Source: Anaerolineales bacterium (GTDB lineage Bacteria > Chloroflexota > Anaerolineae > Anaerolineales > Villigracilaceae). From it: 64,000 nucleotides of DNA. The stretch spans positions 1 to 64,000 of the forward strand of contig JABFSL010000018.1 in NCBI GenBank assembly GCA_013140605.1. Reading direction: 5' to 3'. The notes beneath the pieces were generated by a model. The model did no database searches, was not told where the DNA came from, and was given only the letters and a program-made list of their open reading frames with translations. The translations under genes were made by a program, and so were the position numbers. Shown in pieces: positions 23,719-62,222 of this stretch. Numbering within the stretch: the first letter of the stretch is position 1; the number at the start of each line of letters is the position of its first letter.

Positions 23719-25077
23719 ATGCTTATAACGAACGCAAATATAATCACCTGGGAATCCAAAAATCGGATTCTGCAAAACCATGCGGTCTACATTGTAGGTG
23801 ATCGCATCAAAGAGATCGGCACAACCAAATCACTGACCGCGAAATATCCCAAAGCAAAAACTCTCGATGCGCGAGGACAGTATGTGATGCCCGGCAGTAT
23901 TTGCGCGCATACCCATTTTTATGGAGCCTTCGCGCGCGGAATGGCCATCCCCGGGCCTGCTCCAAAAGACTTCCCTGAGATTCTGCAAAAGTTGTGGTGG
24001 CCGCTTGACCGTTCGCTGGATGCGGAAGCTGTCCGCTTCTCGGCGCTGGTCTGCCTTGTCGATGCGATCAAGCACGGTACGACAACTCTCATCGATCATC
24101 ATGCCTCGCCAAATTGCATTGACGGTTCGCTCGATCTCATTGCCGATGCTGTTGATAAAAGCGGCCTGCGCGGCGTGTTGTGTTATGAAGTGACAGACCG
24201 CGATGGAAGTGAAAAAGCCAACGCGGGGATTAATGAAAATGTGCGCTTCCTAAAACGATTGGCCGCTGACCCGCATCCGCGCCTCGCTGCGACCTTTGGC
24301 CTGCACGCCAGTCTGACGCTTTCGGGCATCACCCTGCAGGCTTGCCGCGCCGCCGTCCCCGAAGGAACGGGTTTTCATGTGCACACCGCTGAACACGAAT
24401 CGGATGAATATGACAGCCTGAGCAAAAGCGAAATGCGTGTGATTGACCGTCTGCTGAAACATGGAATCCTTGGGTCAAACACGATCACCGCACATGGCAT
24501 CCACTTTGATGCGCGTGAGATGGAAATTCTCAAAGAGACAGGCACATGGCTTACCCACCAGCCGCGTTCGAACATGAACAATGGAGTCGGTGTCACACCT
24601 GTTGAGTCCATGATGCGCTTGAGAGTTAAAGTCTGTTTGGGAAATGACGGTTTCTCCAATGCCATGTGGGAGGAATGGAAAACAGTGTATCTATTGCATA
24701 AAGCTCATCACCGTGACCCGCGCCGTATGGGCGGATATGATGTTCAGCAAATGGCGATCTACAACAATGCCGCGCTTGCAAACATGTTCTTCCCCGACGC
24801 TCCCATTGGACAGATCACGCCAGGCGCATTCGCGGACTTAATGTTCGTTGACTATCATCCCTATACTCCAATGACAGATGGCAACCTGCCCTGGCATATT
24901 ATCTTTGGCTTCAATCAAAGCATGGTCACGACAACCATAGCGGCAGGGAAAGTCCTGATGAAAGACCGCGAGTTGCTGACACTCAACGAAGAAGAGATCG
25001 CCGCGCGCGCCAGAGAAATCGCGCCGAGAATTTGGAAACGATATGAGGAAGAAGTGGCGAAAAGCCATAGTGTCTAA
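23719..25077 (+). CDS. ssnA: SsnA-type aminohydrolase
   Basis: Cytoplasmic metal-dependent amidohydrolase (452 residues). The zinc ligands are HTHFYG (about residues 66-71), TAEHESDEYD, TAHGIHF and LGNDGFSNAM. LWWPLDRSLDAE, IDHHASPNCIDGSLDLIADA and RSNMNNGVG match SsnA, which in enterobacteria sits beside the ygfK/ygfM/xdhD genes of a purine-degrading Mo-hydroxylase system. XdhD-like, FAD-subunit and XdhC genes occur elsewhere in this window. The substrate is unproven (guanine-like or ring-opened purines are candidates). Its last codons run into the AGTGTC micro-repeats that flank the next element. Confidence 0.85.
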   Translation: MLITNANIITWESKNRILQNHAVYIVGDRIKEIGTTKSLTAKYPKAKTLDARGQYVMPGSICAHTHFYGAFARGMAIPGPAPKDFPEILQKLWWPLDRSLDAEAVRFSALVCLVDAIKHGTTTLIDHHASPNCIDGSLDLIADAVDKSGLRGVLCYEVTDRDGSEKANAGINENVRFLKRLAADPHPRLAATFGLHASLTLSGITLQACRAAVPEGTGFHVHTAEHESDEYDSLSKSEMRVIDRLLKHGILGSNTITAHGIHFDAREMEILKETGTWLTHQPRSNMNNGVGVTPVESMMRLRVKVCLGNDGFSNAMWEEWKTVYLLHKAHHRDPRRMGGYDVQQMAIYNNAALANMFFPDAPIGQITPGAFADLMFVDYHPYTPMTDGNLPWHIIFGFNQSMVTTTIAAGKVLMKDRELLTLNEEEIAARAREIAPRIWKRYEEEVAKSHSV

Positions 25078-25112
25078 AGTGTCGTGAAAAGTGTCTTAGT
25101 GTCAAAAGTGTC
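25069..25112. repeat. Left micro-repeat arm of four-helix-bundle element 1
   Basis: Five AGTGTC/CGTGTC-type units spaced about 9 bases apart (AGTGTCTAAAGTGTCGTG...). The opposite orientation (GACACT, CGACAC) appears at 25507-25538 on the other side of the gene, so the two arms can pair. Confidence 0.65.
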
Positions 25113-25132
25113 ATTTGTTGCGTGGAGTGTTT

Positions 25133-25502
25133 ATGGCATTGATAAAAAAGTTTGAAGATATTATCGTGTGGCAGGAAGCGCGTAATTTGGTGAAGATGGT
25201 TTATAAGTTAACAAGTACGGGTGATTTCAGCAAAGACTTTGGGTTACGAGACCAAATTCGCAGAGCATCCGTTTCTACAATGACAAATATTGCGAGGATT
25301 TGATTGTGAATCGAATGTAGAATTTGCCCGCTTTTTAGTTATTGCGCGCCGTTCATCTGTTGAAGTCCAATCACTTCTATATGCAGCGCTTGATGTTGGT
25401 TACATTGACGAGAACACACGCAAAACGTACTACGACCAAGCCTACAAAACCAAAGGCTTGATCAACGCCCTAAAACGTTCACTCAAAATACAATCAAAAT
25501 AA
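25133..25502 (+). pseudogene. Four-helix-bundle (S23/IVP-type) gene, frameshifted
   Basis: The first part ([20 protein letters not shown] to VSTMTNIA) and the second ([20 protein letters not shown] to the stop at 25502) together make one about 120-residue four-helix-bundle protein related to those encoded by 23S rRNA intervening sequences. The conserved NIAEG motif is where they part: the bases GCGAGGATTTG lack two bases (GCG GAG GGA TTT expected). Either the gene is dead or the assembly has an error here. The gene is bracketed by inverted micro-repeats. The intact relative is at 28115. Confidence 0.8.
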
Positions 25503-25506
25503 TCAA

Positions 25507-25538
25507 CGACACTCTGACACATCGACACTTTCGACACA
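25507..25538. repeat. Right micro-repeat arm of four-helix-bundle element 1
   Basis: Units CGACAC, TGACAC, CGACAC, CGACAC spaced 8-9 bases apart. They are the reverse complement of the left arm units at 25069-25112. Confidence 0.65.
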
Positions 25539-25573
25539 TAAAAACACAGATACCATTTATTCACGGAGAATCA

Positions 25574-27081: not shown

Positions 27082-27474
27082 ATGAAAAAATTCCCTCTGG
27101 AATATCTCGACCTTCTCAAAGACGAAACAAAAGCATATCTATTTCTCGCGACCGCGATGCCTGACGGCTCGCCGCAAGTCACACCGATATGGTTCAACGC
27201 AAATGATGATTACATCCTCATCAACACCAACGAGGGGCGCACCAAAGACCGCAACATGAAAGCGCGTCCCAAAGTCGCCCTCGTCATTCAAGACCCCGCA
27301 ACTCCTTATCGTTATATTCAAATTCGCGGAGAGATCGCCGAGTTCACCACTCAAGGCGCCGATGAACACATCAATCAACTCTCGCTCAAATATGATGATA
27401 AGCCGTGGAAATACCGCGAAGGACAAAAGCGGATCATCTTCAAAATTAAACCGACTCACATTGACGCCCACTGA
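27082..27474 (+). CDS. PPOX-class F420-dependent oxidoreductase
   Basis: A 130-residue split-barrel flavin/deazaflavin-binding protein. LDLLKDETKAYLFLATAMPD, GSPQVTPIWFNAND, INTNEGRTKDRNMKARPKVA and QIRGEIAEFT match the Rv1155-like subgroup that uses F420. Its substrate is unknown; relatives reduce biliverdin or act on fatty acids and quinones. GAGGCAC precedes the ATG. Location in the F420 cluster supports the cofactor choice. Confidence 0.85.
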   Translation: MKKFPLEYLDLLKDETKAYLFLATAMPDGSPQVTPIWFNANDDYILINTNEGRTKDRNMKARPKVALVIQDPATPYRYIQIRGEIAEFTTQGADEHINQLSLKYDDKPWKYREGQKRIIFKIKPTHIDAH

Positions 27475-28087
27475 TCTCCACACCTTCCTGCGGACTCGCC
27501 GCTCGATCCGCCGCTTCAAACCTGACCCGATTCCTGATTCGGTTATCGAGAACATTCTCACCACTGCCACATACGCCCCCTCCGCGCATCATCGCCAGCC
27601 CTGGAGATTTGCTGTAGTGACGGACGCTGCGCGATCCGTAAAGAATCAACTTGCAGACGCGATGGCAAAGAAATTCGAACTCGACCTTGAAGCAGATTCT
27701 CTTCCACTTGAAGAAATCGAAAAAAAAGTTGCGCGTTCGCGTGACAGAATTATCACAGCACCAGTAATCATCATCCTAAGTGTAGACATGAGTGATATGG
27801 ACACATATCCAGATAAACGACGTAAAAAAGCTGAATACCTCATGGCGTCCCAATCTACAGCAAACGCAGGAATGCAATTGCTCCTCGCAGCACATGCGGA
27901 AGGATTAGGAAGTGTCTGGGTTTGCAGTCCGCTATTTGCGCAGGAAACAGTACAGACCGTTTTAAGTTTGCCAAAATCATGGGAACCGCAGGCAATGTAC
28001 TTTCTTGGTTACCCCGAAGAAATTCCACAAGCTAGGGAAAGAAAAAAATTATGTGAAATTCTTTTGACCGTGGACGGTAGACGGTAG
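27461..28087 (+). CDS. Nitroreductase family protein (FbiB C-terminal-like)
   Basis: FMN-dependent nitroreductase fold: LRTRRSIRRFKPDPIPDSVI, TYAPSAHHRQPWRFAVV, QSTANAGMQLLLAAHAEG, GSVWVCSPLF and YFLGYPEE. Between cofE and cofD it probably plays the part of the FbiB C-terminal domain, which reduces dehydro-F420 to F420. The start is unclear: no ATG fits the family length, and I favour the TTG at 27461, overlapping the previous gene by 14 bases. The final residues (VDGRR) come from the micro-repeat arm that flanks the next gene. Confidence 0.75.
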   Translation: MTPTDLHTFLRTRRSIRRFKPDPIPDSVIENILTTATYAPSAHHRQPWRFAVVTDAARSVKNQLADAMAKKFELDLEADSLPLEEIEKKVARSRDRIITAPVIIILSVDMSDMDTYPDKRRKKAEYLMASQSTANAGMQLLLAAHAEGLGSVWVCSPLFAQETVQTVLSLPKSWEPQAMYFLGYPEEIPQARERKKLCEILLTVDGRR

Positions 28088-28090
28088 ACC
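28066..28090. repeat. Left micro-repeat arm of four-helix-bundle element 2
   Basis: GACCGTGGACGGTAGACGGTAGACC: 7-base GGACGGT/AGACGGT units that contain the nitroreductase stop codon. The inverted counterpart is at 28538-28564. Confidence 0.65.
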
Positions 28091-28114
28091 ATATTTTCAA
28101 AACAAGGAATTGAA

Positions 28115-28525
28115 ATGTCTTTTAAATTTGAACAATTGGATGTTTGGAATTTATCTTTGGAGTACTTCGATTTGATTTATGATTTTGCAGAGAAACTTCC
28201 AGACAGCGAGCGTTTCAATCTAAAATCACAAATCACTCGCGCGGCTACATCGGTCTCGCTAAATATTGCAGAAGGGTCAACAGGACAGAGCGATCCTGAA
28301 CAAAACCGCTTTCTGGGATTGGCGCTTCGATCTTTGATTGAAACGGTTGCATGTCAAAGACTCATCACGCGCCGAAAATATGTCACTGATGAAGCACATC
28401 TGAATCAACTTGACACAAAAGCTCAGGAACTTGCCAAACGTATTAGCGCTTTTAGAAAAGCATTGGTTTCTTCAAACAAAAACATCCGCGAAAATCACAC
28501 CACTTATGAAATCAACGAATTCTAA
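28115..28525 (+). CDS. Four-helix-bundle protein (S23/IVP-type), intact
   Basis: A 136-residue helical protein: FEQLDVWNLSLEYFDLIYDF, FNLKSQITRAATSVSLNIAE, FLGLALRSLIETVACQRLIT. It carries the NIAEG core missing in the damaged relative at 25133. The family occurs in 23S rRNA intervening sequences and as accessory proteins of retroelements, but no reverse transcriptase or rRNA is here. It sits inside the F420 operon, overlaps the cofD start by 20 bases, and is bracketed by inverted 7-base repeats. Confidence 0.85.
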   Translation: MSFKFEQLDVWNLSLEYFDLIYDFAEKLPDSERFNLKSQITRAATSVSLNIAEGSTGQSDPEQNRFLGLALRSLIETVACQRLITRRKYVTDEAHLNQLDTKAQELAKRISAFRKALVSSNKNIRENHTTYEINEF

Positions 28526-29495
28526 AGACTCATCTCACGGTCAACCGTCCATCGTCCGTCGTCGAATTGTTGCCCTCGCGGGCGGAGTCGGCGGCGCGAA
28601 ACTTGCCCACGGACTTGCCCAAATCCTTGCACCAGAAGATTTAACCGTCATCGTCAACACGGGCGATGACTTTGAACATTTGGGGATGTACATTTGCCCC
28701 GACCTGGACACGGTCTGCTATACACTGGCTGGACTTGCAAATCCAGAAACTGGCTGGGGGCGTGTAAACGAAACCTGGAATACCATTGCAAATATTGAAA
28801 AACTTGGGGGACCAAACTGGTTCCGCCTGGGCGATCAGGATATTGCCACGCATCTTGAAAGAACCAGAAGGATGAAAGAAGGCCAGTCGCTTTCACAGAT
28901 CACAAGAGATTTTTGCGCGGCGTGGGGTATCAAGCATACGATTTTGCCAATGACCGATTCGCCTGTGCGAACGATGGTGGATACAGATGAAGGCGAGCTA
29001 GCATTTCAGGAGTATTTTGTTCACAGACACTGCGAGCCGAGAGTCAAAGGCTTTCGGTTCGACGGAGTCAATATCGCTGAGCCAGCTCCGGGTGCGCGCG
29101 AAGCGATTGAATCAGCGGATGCAATTGTTTTTTGCCCGTCAAATCCGTGGGTAAGTGTGGATCCGATTTTGCGAGTCATTTCCCTCACCCCAACCCCTCT
29201 CCCTTGGGGAGAGGGGCGGAAAGTTGTCGCAGTCTCGCCCATTATTGGTGGAAAAACTGTCAAAGGGCCTGCCGCCAAGATGTATTCAGAACTTGGCATT
29301 GAGCCTTCCGCACTGGCGGTGGCGGAACATTATCGCAACATTCTTGCTGGCTTTGTGTTAGATAGTGTAGACTCTGAAATGGAAAATAGTATTAAGCAAT
29401 TGGGCATCCGAACACTTGTAACAGATACACTTATGAATAACCTTACAGATCGTACGCGTCTTGCACAGGATGTGCTAAACTTTATTCGGAGTTAA
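28506..29495 (+). CDS. cofD: 2-phospho-L-lactate transferase, F420 pathway
   Basis: Joins the phospholactyl-type moiety to the deazaflavin Fo, giving (dehydro-)F420-0. Family motifs: [83 protein letters not shown] and [23 protein letters not shown] 28506 was chosen because it overlaps the upstream gene's end. Its first residues (about HGQPSIVRR) come from the right arm of the four-helix element. A second oddity is at about residues 226-238: [12 protein letters not shown] is encoded by an in-frame palindrome between two conserved blocks. Confidence 0.93.
28538..28564. repeat. Right micro-repeat arm of four-helix-bundle element 2
   Basis: CGGTCAACCGTCCATCGTCCGTCGTC: units ACCGTCC, ATCGTCC, reverse complements of the left arm units at 28066. 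The arm codes for the N-terminus of CofD. Confidence 0.65.
29182..29218. repeat. In-frame palindrome inside cofD
   Basis: CCCTCACCCCAACCCCTCTC continues into a stem CCCCTCTCCC/GGGAGAGGGG (29194-29203, 29207-29216). It is translated as [12 protein letters not shown]. The same family is at 34460-34495 and, decayed, at 7778. Confidence 0.75.
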
Positions 29496-42893: not shown

Positions 42894-43667
42894 ATGATCA
42901 CAACTTATCATCGCCCGCAAACATTGGAAGAAGCCCTGACTCTTTTGACTCAACCAAACACTATTCCCCTTGGAGGAGGCACGCTTCTCTCCCACCCGAC
43001 ACCCTTCGATCAAACTCAGGGCAAGCCTGATTCCGTCCAAGCGGTTGATCTTCAATCTTTGGGTTTGGACTCCCTAACAAAAAAAGGCAACGACCTTGAA
43101 ATCGGAGCAACTGTCACTCTTCAAGCATTGCTCGAAAACGAAAATTGCCCCGAAGCGTTGAAGGCCGCCATCAAACTCGAAGCGCCGATCAACATCCGCA
43201 ATTCGGCCACTGCTGCAGGCACTCTCGTCACAAGTGATGGCCGCTCGCCGTTCGCAACCGCATTGCTGGCGATGGATGCGAAGATCGAAAAGGCGCTATT
43301 CGATAATTCGAAAATCGAATACCAAATATCGAATATTGGCGAATTCCTCCCTCTTCGTCCAATCAACCTTATTACAAAGATCATCCTGCCCCTCAACACA
43401 AAATTCGCATTTGAATTTGTCTCCCGCACCCCAGCAGACAAACCCATCATCTGCGCTGCGTTGACTCAGTGGTCATCAGGCCGCACACGCCTCGCCCTTG
43501 GCGGCTACGGCAAGAGTCCCATGCTGGCAATGGACGGCACCGAATCTGAAGGACTCGAATCCGCCGCGCGCAACGCCTATCACGAAGCGACAGATGAATG
43601 GGCATCCGCCGAATACCGCATGGATGTGGCGGCTGTATTAGCTAAAAGATGTCTTGAAGCGATATAG
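42894..43667 (+). CDS. Molybdenum hydroxylase FAD-binding subunit (CoxM/YgfM-like)
   Basis: A 257-residue FAD-binding subunit of the xanthine dehydrogenase family: YHRPQTLEEALTLL, the FAD loop TIPLGGGTLL, LEIGATVTLQALLENENCPE, INIRNSATAAGTLVTSDGRS. It would pass electrons from the XdhD-like Mo subunit (50989) to an acceptor. At residues about 34-47, HPTPFDQTQGKPDS comes from an in-frame repeat (CACCCTTCGATCAAACTCAGG) and replaces a region normally occupied by a short loop. Its Mo partner lies 7 kb away rather than adjacent. Confidence 0.88.
   Translation: MITTYHRPQTLEEALTLLTQPNTIPLGGGTLLSHPTPFDQTQGKPDSVQAVDLQSLGLDSLTKKGNDLEIGATVTLQALLENENCPEALKAAIKLEAPINIRNSATAAGTLVTSDGRSPFATALLAMDAKIEKALFDNSKIEYQISNIGEFLPLRPINLITKIILPLNTKFAFEFVSRTPADKPIICAALTQWSSGRTRLALGGYGKSPMLAMDGTESEGLESAARNAYHEATDEWASAEYRMDVAAVLAKRCLEAI
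42995..43027. repeat. In-frame CCCTTCGA...CAGGGC repeat in the FAD-subunit gene
   Basis: CGACACCCTTCGATCAAACT followed by CAGGGCAAGC resembles the intergenic motif CCCTTCGACAAGCTCAGGG and forms a small stem (CCCT/AGGG). A CCCTGAGCG...TCGAAGGG version is inside the XdhD-like gene. Confidence 0.55.
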
Positions 43668-50988: not shown

Positions 50989-53900
50989 ATGAACATCACA
51001 CTACACATCAACGGCATAGACTACAACATTGACCTCGCTCCCTCCACCACTCTCCTCGCCGCCCTGCGCGGACTTGGCTTTCACGGAGTCAAGTTTGGCG
51101 ATGAAGGCGGCTTGAGCGGCTCGGACACGATTTTATTAAATGGCAAACCTGTCAATGCGGGTTCGATTCTCGCGGCGCAGGCTGAAGGTCACAAGGTCGC
51201 CACCATCGAAGCGCTCGGCGAACATCCTGAACAAGGCTGGAAGTTGACCGACGGTCTGCATCCGCTGCAAAAGGCCTTTGTTGAATCTGGCGCGATCCAA
51301 TGCGGTTATTGCACGCCCGCGCAAATCCTCGCCGCGAAATCTTTGCTTGAAAAGAATCCCAACCCAACCGAGGCCGAAGTCCGCGAGGCAATTTCTGGTG
51401 TGCTCTGCCGCTGCACGGGCTATCTCAAACCTGTGCAGGCTGTGCTGAAAGCCGCCGCGGAATTAAGGGGCGATGCGCCGCTTGAACTGGGTTCCATTCT
51501 ATGGGACTTCGGCGCGCCCAAAGATGACTCCCCTCAAGATGACGCCCCCGCTTCAAACCTGACGGGTGTGCAGGTTCGGCCAAAAGTGGTTTTATCTCCC
51601 GAATCAAAGGTCTATCAAACTGTCGGCAAGCCAGAGATCAAAGTGGACGCGGTCAAACTAGTGCAGGGCAAACCCGCCTTCACCGCTGATTTCGAAAAAC
51701 GTGGAATGCTCCATGCCAAAGTTTTACATTCACCACATGCACACGCATTGATCAAGAATATCGATACCAGCAAAGCCAAGGCGCTGGATGGTGTTGCCGC
51801 AGTCCTCACGTGGCAAGACCTGCCGCGGGTTGTGTATTCCACCGCAGGGCAGTCTGACCCGATCCCTGGGCCATTGGATGCTTTTTCGCTGGATAAAAAA
51901 GTCCGCTTCGTTGGTGACCGTGTGGCATTCGTCGCTGCAGAAACTGAAGAGATCGCAGAGCAAGCTCTCGCGCTGATCGATGTCGAGTATGAAATCCTGC
52001 CTGCGGTTTTGAAGTCAACCGAATCAATGACCAGCACCATAAAGATCCATGACGAACCCGAATATGTTAATTTTGCAGATTCCAATCCAGATAAAAATCT
52101 GGCCGCACACATCCGCATTGACATTGGCGATGTTGAAAAAGGATTCAGAGAAGCGGATGTGATCTTTGAGGCTTTTTACGAAGTGCCAAAAGTTCAACAA
52201 GCGCACATCGAGCCGCATGTGGTTGTGACATATTGGGATGAGGATGATCGATTGGTCATCCGCACATCCACGCAAGTTCCATTCCATGTCCGCAGGATGA
52301 TGGCGCCGGTATTGGGTTTGCCTGTGAAGAGAATCCGCGTCATCAAACCACGCATCGGCGGCGGCTTCGGCGGCAAGCAGGAAGTATTGATGGAAGATGT
52401 GGCCGCACATTTGACCATTGCCACCAAACAGCCAGTGATGTACGAATACACACGCGAAGAGGAATTTATCGCCGCACGCTCGCGTCACCCCATGCGCGTG
52501 CAAATGAAAACTGGCGTAAAGAAGGACGGCACGATCACAGCCAACTCAATGTATGCGCTGTCTGATACTGGCGCGTATGGTTGTCATGCTCTAACAGTAA
52601 CAGGTAACACAGGTCACAAAGCAATGGCGTTATATGTTGGCGATGGCGAATATCGCAAAGCGCCGAACATCCGCTTTTACGCTGATGTGGTTTATACCAA
52701 CACACCGCCCGCTGGAGCATTCCGCGGCTACGGTGTTCCACAAGGTTACTGGCCGCTCGACCGTCACATGGAAAAGATCGCGCGCGCCATGGGCCTCGAC
52801 CCAATTGACTTCCGCTTGAAGAACGCAATTCACCCCGGAGAATACCATCCATTTTCAACCGCATGGAACGAAGGCCGCGACCCGCGCCCAGAGATCATCC
52901 ACACGGTTGGGCTGGAACAATGCGTGGCACAAGCCCGAGCCGCAATCGGCTGGGATGATAAATATGGGAATGAGGAATGGCGAAATTCAGCGTCGAAAGT
53001 CGAAAGCGATGCCCTGAGCGTGTCGAAGGGTCAAAAGTCAGGTATGACCTTCGACCTTCGACCTTCGACAAAAAGAAAAGGCATCGGCGTTGCGATGGTC
53101 ATGCAAGGCACTGCCATCCCTTATCTCGACATGGGTGGCGCATCCATCAAGATGAATGATGATGGCTCGTTCAATTTGCTTGTCGGCGCAACGGATTTGG
53201 GGACAGGCTCGGATACTGTCCTTGCCCAAATGGCGGCGGAAATTCTAGGCGTGCCTGTGGACGATGTGATCACTTACTCTTCCGATACAGACTTCACTCC
53301 GTTCGACAAAGGCGCGTATGCGTCTTCAACAACTTATATCTCAGGCACAGCGGCTGTCAACGCAGCGAAGATCGTGGCGGAGAGAATCAGAGTCCGCGCG
53401 GCGATGATGTTAAAGCTCGACAAGCACGATGACATTAAACTTGAAAACAAACAAGCCATCGCACCCGATGGAAGATCGGTATCAATGGCTGAAATTGCTC
53501 TCGATAGTTTGCACAAGAATAACCAGGAACAGATCATGGGCGTGGCGAGTTATGTCTCACCGGTATCGCCTCCTCCGTTCGCTGCTCAATTCGCCGAAGT
53601 GACCGTGGACACTGAAACAGGCGCAGTCACCGTTGACAGACTCGTGATGGCTGTCGATTCAGGCATCATTATCAACCCGCAAACAGCGTCAGGTCAGATC
53701 GAGGGCGGTATGACTCAGGCGCTCGGCTATGCAGTGACCGAAGAAATGCGCTACGATGAAAAAGGCAATGCCATCGAACGCGACTTTGATCGTTATCACC
53801 TCTTCCGCGCTGACGAGATGCCAGAACTGGAAACCATCTTCGTCGAGACGTTCGAACCGAGTCATCCGTTTGGCGTGAAAGCCGTCGCAGAGATTCCCAT

Positions 53901-58144: not shown

Positions 58145-58942
58145 ATGATCTCCATATACCAAGCCTTAGCTGAACTTGAAAAGAATAACGAACCTGCCGC
58201 GCTGTGTACAGTGACGGGCAGTGAAGGTTCCACGCCGCGCCATGTGGGCAGTAAGATGCTCGTCTACCCTGACGGGCGTTTTATTGGCACAGTCGGCGGC
58301 GGCGACCTTGAACATCGCGTGCTCGATGAAGCGTGGATGTCCATCAGTGACGGCCAGCCGCGCAAACTGCATTACAACATGGCTGATCCCTCACGCGGCG
58401 ATCCCGGCGTATGCGGCGGCCAGGTGGAGGTATTTGTGGAACCGATCCTTCCTCCCCCGCTGCTCGTCATTATTGGCGCGGGGCATGTGGGCAAGGCAGT
58501 TGTCCATTTGGCAAAATGGCTGGGATATCGCGTAGCGGTCAACGATGACCGCATGGAATTTTGCACACCCGAGTCCACACCGGGTGCAGATTCGTATTAT
58601 CCCATGACAATGGATAAACTTCCCGAACAAATAAAAATTGACAAACGCACGGTTCTTATCTTAACCACCAGAGGATCAGCCGTCGATGCGGCCGGCATCG
58701 CCCCGCTGCTTGATTCCGCTGCCGCGTATATTGGCATCATCGGCTCAAAACGCAGGTGGGCAACCACAGTCAAAGCGTTGAAGGAAAAAGGGGTCAGCGA
58801 AGACAAGATCGCCAAAGTCCACTCGCCGATGGGATTGGAATTACAAGCCGAGACCCCCGAAGAGATCGCAGTCAGCATTATGGCCGAGGTGATGATGATA
58901 AAAGATAAGGGGACGGGAAAGTCGATGAAGAGTAGTGGATAG
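58145..58942 (+). CDS. XdhC/CoxI-family molybdenum hydroxylase maturation factor
   Basis: A 265-residue protein that loads sulfurated molybdenum cofactor into xanthine dehydrogenase-type enzymes. Signatures: ALCTVTGSEGSTPRHVGSKM, GTVGGGDLEHRVLDEAW, CGGQVEVFVEP, the Rossmann loop LLVIIGAGHVGKAVV and IGIIGSKRRWATTVKAL. It likely serves the XdhD-like enzyme at 50989. The last residues (TGKSMKSSG) run into a stop-rich degenerate repeat (GTGGATAGTGGGTAGTGAG). Confidence 0.92.
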   Translation: MISIYQALAELEKNNEPAALCTVTGSEGSTPRHVGSKMLVYPDGRFIGTVGGGDLEHRVLDEAWMSISDGQPRKLHYNMADPSRGDPGVCGGQVEVFVEPILPPPLLVIIGAGHVGKAVVHLAKWLGYRVAVNDDRMEFCTPESTPGADSYYPMTMDKLPEQIKIDKRTVLILTTRGSAVDAAGIAPLLDSAAAYIGIIGSKRRWATTVKALKEKGVSEDKIAKVHSPMGLELQAETPEEIAVSIMAEVMMIKDKGTGKSMKSSG

Positions 58943-58982
58943 TGGGTAGTGAGAAGTGAAAAGTAATAAGTGAAACCCATTA

Positions 58983-60596: not shown

Positions 60597-62222
60597 TCAT
60601 TCCAATTTGCACATTACATCCACAACGTTATTCAAAATATCACTTGCCATCACAGATGCTGTTGTTCCGAGATCTTCAGCAGCGAGCAGCCCCGCTTCAG
60701 CGTGGATGTATGCGCCTGCAACGGCAGCATCGTAAGCGTCCAAACCTTGCGCGCGCAAACCGACGATCAGGCCAGCTAAAACGTCACCTGTGCCAGCACG
60801 CGCCAACGCGGGCGATGCAACTGGGATTACAGTCGTCTGTCCATTGGGGGCGGCGATCACTGTGAACGCACCTTTCAATACCACTACGTGTCCCCATTCC
60901 TGCGCATATTTCGTGGCAATGGCTTCACGGTCATTTTGAATTTCATCCTTCGGTAAACCCGTCAGCACAGACATCTCGCCGGGATGCGGAGTCAACACAC
61001 TGAGCGGAGGAAGTTTTTTGTGCCAGTCGGAAATTTGCGCGAGCAACTTCAATCCGTCTGCGTCTACAACCATGGACGGCAACTCATTACTTGTTTCTTG
61101 TATCCTGTTTCTTTCTCCATGAACAAACCCTATTTGCGATGTCTGCTTCCTGGCATTGGATTTGCCTGTGAGCAATCCTTCCAAAAATTCTTTTGTCTTG
61201 GCTTCGAGTCCGAGTCCTGGCCCGACGAGTAAAGCTGATGCGCTTTCAAGGGACTTGGTCAGCGCTTCGGCAGCGTTGCCCGCAATATTGCCCATGTCAT
61301 GCGGAAGCAAAATCCATGTGGCCTCTGGGAGCTGACCTGCCAGCACAACATGCAGCGGACCTGGCACCGCCATCGTGACAAGTCCCGCGCCCGAGCGATA
61401 CGCCGCCATGCCAGCCAGCAACGCCGCACCAGTGTAGTTGATGGAACCGGCAGCTATCAGTGCAGTACCAAACGTCCCTTTGTGTGAATCGAGCGCGCGC
61501 TCAGGCAGGAGTCCCGCCACCAGTTCATGATCCGCCACTTCAGTTTTCAAATCATAAAAGGATGCAAGATCATCAGGCAGGCCAATATCTACCAGCGCCA
61601 AATCACCGACAAATTCGAAGGCGGGCAGTTTCAATAGTCCGCGTTTGACCGCCGCCATTGTGACAGTCAAATCAGCGGGCAAACACTCCAACGCGGCTTC
61701 GCCAGTATCGCAATCAACTCCAGAGGGACAATCCACCGCGATGATAAAAGGCGGCACATCCATCTCATCCATGATGAAAAGGGACTGCTCCAGCACAGCC
61801 GAGATCTCAGCCTTGAGCGGAAGTTTTATGCCAGTTCCAAGCAGACCATCCAGCAAAATATCAGCGGATTCAAAGCACATACCCAGCGCGGACAGATCCT
61901 TATCAGTTTCAGCGAAGGTCACTTCCCCGCCCGCCTCAGTGAAACGCGCCACTAATTCATCCTTCTTCTTGCGCTTGACCACATAGGCGCGCGCATGCCA
62001 GCCATCCTCCAAAAGATGAGTCAACGCGACCAGCGTATCGCCGCCATTATTGCCAGGACCAACCAGACCCAGCACTTCCTCCCACTCATCATCGAATGCG
62101 ATCTCATTGACTATTTCCGCAAGCCCGCGGCCTGCGTTTTCCATCATCTCGGCATAAGGCAAGCCGTTTGTGTCTGCTTCTTTTTCAATATCACGCATCT
62201 GCGCGACAGTTACGAGTTTCAT
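60597..62222 (-). CDS. nnr: Bifunctional NAD(P)H-hydrate repair enzyme
   Basis: A 541-residue fusion that repairs hydrated NAD(P)H. The N-terminal NnrE epimerase (residues 1-215: YAEMMENAGRGLAEIV, LVGPGNNGGDTLVALTHLLE) is followed by the NnrD ADP-dependent dehydratase (225-541: AALLAGMAAYRSGAGLVTM, VLTPHPGEMSVLTGL, ALARAGTGDVLAGLIVGLRA). Between the NnrD blocks at about residues 353-380 is a poorly conserved stretch (GKSNARKQTSQIGFVHGERN) that looks like an inserted segment of degenerate repeat (AGGATACAAGAAACAAG). The start ATG at 62222 matches the family's N-terminus. Confidence 0.95.
   Translation of the reverse strand: MKLVTVAQMRDIEKEADTNGLPYAEMMENAGRGLAEIVNEIAFDDEWEEVLGLVGPGNNGGDTLVALTHLLEDGWHARAYVVKRKKKDELVARFTEAGGEVTFAETDKDLSALGMCFESADILLDGLLGTGIKLPLKAEISAVLEQSLFIMDEMDVPPFIIAVDCPSGVDCDTGEAALECLPADLTVTMAAVKRGLLKLPAFEFVGDLALVDIGLPDDLASFYDLKTEVADHELVAGLLPERALDSHKGTFGTALIAAGSINYTGAALLAGMAAYRSGAGLVTMAVPGPLHVVLAGQLPEATWILLPHDMGNIAGNAAEALTKSLESASALLVGPGLGLEAKTKEFLEGLLTGKSNARKQTSQIGFVHGERNRIQETSNELPSMVVDADGLKLLAQISDWHKKLPPLSVLTPHPGEMSVLTGLPKDEIQNDREAIATKYAQEWGHVVVLKGAFTVIAAPNGQTTVIPVASPALARAGTGDVLAGLIVGLRAQGLDAYDAAVAGAYIHAEAGLLAAEDLGTTASVMASDILNNVVDVMCKLE

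Follow-up and report, generated by a model that had tools for sequence, protein, structure and literature searches.

The window, by which we mean the whole stretch of 64,000 nucleotides of Anaerolineales DNA that was analysed, carries an IVP/S23p gene placed between a nitroreductase-like ORF and cofD and flanked on either side by a short array of inward-facing heptamers. It also holds a second, decayed element, a gene-less pair of arrays and a solitary array.

28115 to 28525, plus strand: IVP/S23p gene (PF05635, TIGR02436), 136 aa, four-helix bundle, by profile matches and an AlphaFold model.
28066 to 28093, plus strand: left array of four inward heptamers, GACCGTG GACGGTA GACGGTA GACCATA, by sequence and repeat search.
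28536 to 28563, minus strand: right array of four inverted heptamers, CACGGTC AACCGTC CATCGTC CGTCGTC, by sequence and repeat search.
28506 to 29495, plus strand: cofD, its ATG lying within the IVP 3' end with a 20-nt overlap, by ORF reading and relatives.
27362 to 28087, plus strand: upstream nitroreductase-like ORF, a relative of the FbiB C-terminal domain with a score below the model cut-off.
25070 to 25541 (ends approximate), plus strand: second, decayed IVP element with GTGTC-type arrays and a frameshifted IVP gene.
52992 to 53069, no strand assigned: gene-less inward-facing array pair GTCGAAR / YTTCGAC, its unit being that of another IVP of the same genome (L003).
58933 to 58967, plus strand: solitary array TAGTGGA TAGTGGG TAGTGAG AAGTGAA AAGTAAT at the end of an xdhC-like gene.

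A sequence-only reading of this DNA had described the IVP gene at 28115 as flanked by matching arms that also encode the last residues of the nitroreductase and the first of CofD, and had mentioned a first locus with GTGTC-type arms. We find all of these: four inward heptamers stand on each side, the left array encodes the C-terminal residues of the nitroreductase, the right array, read in the CofD frame, encodes part of the N-terminal extension of that protein, and the first locus is seen at about 25070-25541. There the IVP profile gives two matches in different frames, and because of this frameshift we consider the element to be decaying. Taken alone, the window arms are modestly above chance. 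The repeat search finds 75% complementarity between 28063-28090 and 28539-28566, the arm score is reached by 18 of 500 dinucleotide shuffles, and the joint array score of 402 exceeds the 99th percentile (384) of 465 displaced windows and stays below their maximum (432). The gene-less pair at 52992-53069 lies inside a xanthine-dehydrogenase-like gene whose reading frame is kept, and the unit of the array at 58933-58967 resembles that of a further IVP of the same genome (L001). Two other period-7 stretches occur in the window, at 43304-43338 and at 61082-61116; the latter lies inside a minus-strand ORF and looks by eye like the arms of another IVP of the genome (L004). At about 1500 of yet another of its loci (L368) a GGTCAAA array appears to be nested within GGACGGT-type arms, which would fit the insertion of one element inside another.

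The window IVP scores 97.1 bits against PF05635 (cut-off 33.8) and 95.8 bits against TIGR02436 (cut-off 24), and no catalytic domain is known in the family. The AlphaFold model of the monomer has four helices (pLDDT 90) and is best matched in the PDB by 2gsc (TM 0.80 when scaled to query length, 0.92 when scaled to that of the target), which is XCC0516, an IVP of Xanthomonas campestris. It also matches 2rld, followed more weakly by Avd (4dwl; TM 0.71 by query and 0.87 by target length, Foldseek E 0.24) and by the ribonucleoproteins of diversity-generating retroelements. Both solved relatives, 2gsc and 2rld, were deposited with five chains, and the Xanthomonas protein is called a toroidal homopentamer in the excerpts of a Coxiella paper used here (PMC4990558). 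The modelled product of the window gene most likely forms a five-membered ring, for which we infer one heptamer per protomer. Among candidate specificity residues, none predicted the heptamer beyond label permutation.

As a class, IVP loci carry arrays far beyond chance. The genome of the window has ten such loci (11 HMM matches, one gene being broken in two), at which the mean score between the two arms of a locus is 18.2, compared with 10.9 (sd 1.8) between arms of different loci, the own partner being strictly best in nine of the ten rows and tied in one (L005). A larger sample from this genome and its order-level relatives comprises 118 loci that group into 41 site clusters and, at 50% identity, into nine protein clusters. 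When each site is represented by a single locus, own arms reach a mean score of 20.2 against 10.2 for unrelated loci and 9.9 for displaced windows (n=461), and 31 of the 41 site representatives exceed the 95th percentile of unrelated pairs, 17 of them the 99th. A period of seven dominates (lag-7 identity 0.39 versus about 0.25 in the control, over the 103 of 118 loci with a score of 14 or more). The joint array score takes five units on each side and was obtained for 245 of 251 deduplicated ORFs. At 179 of these loci it passes the 99th percentile of the 465 displaced windows and at 148 their maximum, the other 66 of the 245 failing the percentile threshold. The arms are above chance over many loci, as the sequence-only reading required; its notion of an undescribed element around one protein family is supported, and the phenomenon is wider than that reading assumed.

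The spelling of the heptamer evidently tracks the IVP subfamily, even across phyla. Between loci at non-homologous sites the arm score is 10.3 at 30-49% protein identity and reaches 11.7, 13.5, 17.4 and 22.3 for identities in the 50s, 60s, 70s and 80s, the last bin holding five pairs; similarity of heptamer profiles is 0.42 below 40% identity and 0.55-0.61 at 50-89%. The strongest case for arms that belong to the protein comes from a cross-phylum set of MKDF-type loci, the best 80 of at least 521 matches to one query, of which 79 were used (one flank being short). These best 80 include records named as Chloroflexi, Cyanobacteria, Bacteroidales, Acidobacteria, Nitrospirae, Deltaproteobacteria, Verrucomicrobiales and others, and T(C/T/A)AGCnn chains stand on both sides of the gene in 66 of the 79. 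Counted with a fixed motif in this same selection, the left array has exactly five units in 29/79 and four in 15/79 and the right array four in 22/79 and five in another 22/79, as compared with one or two units in 150 of 156 control stretches. Over the loci of all families, arrays on the left are as homogeneous as those on the right (130 and 131). Averaged over all families, the unit is close to TYAGYnn, with mean frequencies of 0.90 for G and 0.70 for A in a profile begun from an A-G seed. The idea of locus-specific arms therefore holds inside one genome, since each genome houses several different IVP subfamilies, and fails across genomes, where the unit follows the subfamily.

The cofD site exists in three states within the genus. 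In the 30 of 52 genomes with a match in which it was read, eight sites are full (IVP present), 17 are native, which supplies the empty sites anticipated by the sequence-only reading, and five are scars, read by eye, with the IVP lost and remains of the right arm ahead of CofD. Native cofD starts with ATGAAA, TTGAAA or GTGAAA directly before the IVALAGG core. In the window this start is lost, and the CofD reading frame opens at the ATG in the IVP 3' end and runs on across the right array; the remaining full sites, where read, have a similar arrangement. Judged from these alleles, the insertion replaced the cofD start codon, and the right array encodes a new CofD N-terminus. On the CofD tree, full sites require at least four changes on well-supported branches. 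No clean target-site duplication was seen. Native leaders upstream of cofD (L123, L125, L126, L128, L129, L133, L137 and L138) contain other 7-8-nt repeats or small inverted repeats, which are perhaps what is left of other elements. Unrelated IVP families occur in five of the 41 site clusters, which group loci by either flank; among the matches listed, both flanks make this certain for L019/L040 only, and hence one or more gene borders act as hot spots.

The number of IVP copies among relatives ranges from 0 to 16, and nearly always there is one copy per type within a genome. Of 12 genomes, 11 have a closest within-genome pair with 36-69% identity and one has a pair with 80%, as compared over retrieved loci open for more than 80 residues (for example 11 of 14 matches in G031 and 6 of 9 in G081). 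IVPs are under purifying selection: 14 site clusters of at least three loci give dN/dS values of 0.04-0.18 between orthologous copies, computed from pairs with dS below 2 and dN below 0.6, with high dS and few pairs in some clusters and a single pair in four. The low identity within genomes together with these ratios sets IVPs apart from active insertion sequences and makes them resemble RAYTs. Forty plasmid records carry IVP-like matches, 14 of these records being typed conjugative and many coming from Nostocales. A pair of Calothrix plasmids considered as a possible IVP jump was set aside, its gene table showing a longer shared segment. The orientation of neighbouring genes is used only loosely here, because the crude gene caller misjudged the window locus, choosing a short antisense ORF where cofD is co-directional. 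At two loci (L294, L295) the IVP lies antisense between two co-directional genes, and a cobalamin riboswitch is found near a third (L190:4088-4277), with no relation to it seen.

Arrays also occur without the gene. The pattern RGTCRAARGTCRAARGTCRAA has 50 matches in the genome of the window at up to one mismatch and 94 at up to two, 47 on each strand, and its backwards control has none. The 94 matches fall into 40 clusters, 17 of them in the order plus-minus, none in the order minus-plus and 23 single, two of the single ones being the arms of the gene-bearing copy. Among inspected array loci, 15 of 19 are intergenic by the crude gene caller and 14 of these 15 lie between co-directional genes. 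When gene-less pairs of any type were sought, 1.34 Mb of retrieved loci yielded 38, whereas shuffled sequence of 0.66 Mb yielded none; the retrieved set includes loci chosen for their arrays and hence gives no fair density. In 30 genus genomes the xanthine-dehydrogenase-like ORF carries an insert at the same place, in frame in all 30, and 19 of the 30 are inverted heptamer pairs, of several unit types, that score above all 40 shuffles made of each. At seven loci of relatives (L305, L312, L316, L317, L318, L320 and L325) this in-frame spot holds other short palindromes, gcaagtctccgacttgcg-like and gtaggggcgac-like.

Gene-less arrays co-occur with the cognate gene in the one genus and for the two unit types compared, kinship being ignored in the test. 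GGTCGAA arrays have a median of 50 in the eight genomes with an intact L003-family IVP versus 9 in 49 others (p=0.0003), three genomes with broken or partial IVPs of this type (G007, G017, G020) being counted as negatives. For GGACGGT the medians are 41 in eight genomes with the cofD IVP and 6 in 17 native ones (p=0.0011), with G014 and G018, whose starts are TTGAAA and GTGAAA, classed here as native and labelled 'other' in the comparison with the CofD tree. Swapping arrays and IVPs gives p=0.36 and 0.07. Several genomes have many arrays despite an absent IVP (68 in G002, 85 in G072, 59 in G022). The backwards control for GGTCGAA is 0 in the genome of the window and up to 6 elsewhere; that for GGACGGT is not empty, with up to 23 in one genome, and perhaps this backwards pattern resembles another heptamer type. 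Two genomes with 96.8% identity were compared over about 400 kb that contain 14 arrays, and no array insertion distinguished them; one of the arrays is in a non-aligning stretch. A candidate for exact insertion ends from two near genomes proved not to be a clean insertion.

What could maintain the likeness of the two arms? One possibility is an mRNA version of the 23S rRNA intervening sequence, in which the arms would form an RNA stem, RNase III would cut it and the IVP message would be excised from the operon transcript. The Coxiella intervening sequence, according to excerpts of its description, combines an S23p ORF with tandem heptamers and with a stem of 28 bp, and it is cleaved by RNase III (PMC4990558); the sense arms of IVP loci can pair, with a predicted duplex energy of -59 versus -41 kcal/mol for mismatched loci. 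The wobble test for an RNA stem, however, came out the opposite way: over the 103 loci with a score of 14 or more, A.C mismatches outnumber G.U by 399 to 183, with A.C in excess at 30 sites and G.U at four. The A.C excess is confined to columns with a purine on the left and a pyrimidine on the right (A.C 340 vs G.T 135; C.A 59 vs T.G 48), which led us to abandon a minus-strand hairpin as its cause, and in the cross-phylum selection (best 80 of at least 521) it is weak (AC 85, CA 42, GT 59, TG 54). Duplex energies show no strand preference, sense arms being more stable than antisense at just 20 of 41 sites. The free bases keep no register either: 2.07 observed versus 1.99 shuffled (p=0.38) in the 66 of 79 MKDF-type loci with chains on both sides, from the best 80 of at least 521, and an in-register match of 0.458 versus 0.485 in 16 gene-less pairs (p=0.63). 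Permuting units leaves most of the complementarity (17.2 of 19.6; 10.7 when bases are shuffled), though by this measure a small in-register part is present (19.6 vs 17.2, p=0.0001). None of the 20 loci scanned with Rfam, out of the 80 best cross-phylum loci of at least 521, lies in rRNA. We consider the RNA stem very improbable. Given the absent register of free bases and the predominance of A.C over G.U, the arms resemble binding sites arrayed in inverted orientation and not a selected hairpin, and they probably act at the DNA level. The self-complementarity noted by the sequence-only reading is real, and it appears to be a by-product of this inverted layout. The same reading had suggested that the element copies local sequence into its arms on insertion. 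Arms do differ among the copies of one genome; against copying, the unit tracks the protein and not the place, and native cofD leaders, inspected by eye, lack the GGACGGT unit, so that we give this idea next to no credence.

Two further explanations would make the IVP a bystander to the spread of the arrays. The arrays could be an unrelated mobile repeat or the outcome of a simple-sequence process, for example of REP/RAYT type, with which IVP genes hitchhike; excerpts of the literature report heptamer repeats with no protein partner named (PMC4692102, PMC4679880), and the xanthine-dehydrogenase hot spot is also occupied by other palindromes. We regard this as improbable, for the spelling follows the IVP subfamily across phyla, none of seven Y1_Tnp loci in the genome of the window has a three-unit array within 500 nt, and 61 of 161 IVP loci have three-unit arrays on both sides versus 0 of 305 displaced windows. 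Alternatively, the IVP could be a regulator that binds the arrays as operators or nucleoid sites and is no mobility factor, the arrays having spread by other means. Purifying selection at fixed sites, the position of arrays beside gene starts and ends and the lack of movement between the genomes 96.8% identical all accord with a regulator, and a dsDNA-binding protein on heptad arrays is described in the excerpts on ParB/Omega of pSM19035 (PMC9499535). A regulator with dispersed operators explains part of the data; it fits poorly with the patchy full, native and scar states of cofD, with arrays that travel with the IVP gene across phyla and with a hot spot at which gene-less pairs of several unit types sit in frame. 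We hold it to be unlikely, at roughly one chance in a handful.

We favour, at somewhat better than even confidence, a two-part system resembling REPIN-RAYT, in which a pentameric four-helix bundle would take the place of the transposase. One part would be the IVP gene, encoding the bundle that most likely assembles into a ring of five; the other would be the inward-facing arrays of about four to five heptamers each, having a more constant core, about two free bases and a spelling that is particular to the IVP subfamily. Cooperative binding of the IVP to each array is most likely, at about one heptamer per protomer, and the protein most likely holds both arrays together. Recognition of the cognate array by the IVP is a strong inference. 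Gene-less pairs of the same spelling, present in tens of copies between genes and sometimes in frame inside them, would most likely be spread or maintained in trans by the cognate IVP, as a RAYT serves its REPINs; for spread in trans we put the chances at about even. The gene-bearing copy would insert at gene borders, persist under long purifying selection, decay and leave a scar. The chemistry would be done by a host or partner enzyme, and since Avd has the same fold (4dwl, 8ub7, 8ube), a reverse transcriptase is a possible partner. Avd differs by its identity to the window IVP of only about 10%, and no reverse transcriptase is found among the ORFs scanned around the window gene, the adjoining ones being F420 genes. 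The likeness of PF05635 to Avd is already noted in excerpts of PMC10053308, and those of PMC3936711 describe some cas loci in which an IVP gene neighbours Cas4 or Cas6.

Several known systems resemble parts of this arrangement. RAYTs, as far as excerpts of two papers go, are single-copy, distinct and vertically inherited (PMC3116915, PMC8049555), and share with IVPs both the vertical keeping of such genes beside inverted repeats and the dispersed gene-less inverted pairs of matching type, more numerous where the protein gene is present. Dispersed inverted pairs that track a single-copy protein gene are what we found in one genus for two unit types. IVPs differ in being four-helix bundles and not Y1/HUH transposases, in having a heptamer array in place of a conserved hairpin and in occurring on plasmids. 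ParB/Omega-parS of pSM19035 likewise has contiguous 7-bp units and cooperative binding, with at least four needed for full activity (PMC9499535, excerpts), but its protein is a ribbon-helix-helix serving plasmid partition. The Coxiella burnetii 23S rRNA intervening sequence, described as selfish in the excerpts of PMC4990558, has tandem heptamers upstream of its S23p ORF; in both cases a PF05635-type ORF lies between inverted arms, whereas the window IVP sits between protein genes (nitroreductase and cofD) and not in rRNA, its arms behave as binding-site arrays with no selected stem register, and gene-less copies abound. Outside this Coxiella case we found no link between IVP genes and heptamer arrays in the open-licence PubMed Central literature, as far as its excerpts reach; the parts are known separately, as rRNA intervening sequences and as unexplained heptamer repeats, and their connection is, as far as searched, new.

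A wider generalization, to which we give less than even odds, would be a transposase-less class of elements, spread over many phyla, in which a five-fold ring reads about five heptamers by a subfamily code, pairs the arrays and mobilises its own gene together with gene-less miniature copies; rRNA intervening sequences and the Xanthomonas and cyanobacterial heptamer repeats would be its members. If this is true, the very widespread 'four helix bundle protein' would gain a partner together with a role that can be tested, heptamer repeats could form one system with rRNA intervening sequences, a code of recognition between protein and array would be at hand, and the REPIN-RAYT way of life would have had a second, independent origin without a transposase. 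According to excerpts of PMC4692102, two Xanthomonas genomes contain 186 and 183 arrays of GGGAATC; most have four units, there are 70 and 75 convergent plus/minus pairs, and the arrays are generally not tied to mobile elements. Four units and convergent pairs are also what IVP arrays show. Heptameric repeats of Nostoc are mentioned in the same source and TAACTGA repeats of Beggiatoaceae in PMC4679880 (excerpts); all three differ from IVP arrays in that these excerpts name no protein partner. The right flank of one Nostoc IVP (L192) holds a run of about 20 TTAGCnn-like heptamers, which suggests a link to the known cyanobacterial heptamer repeats.
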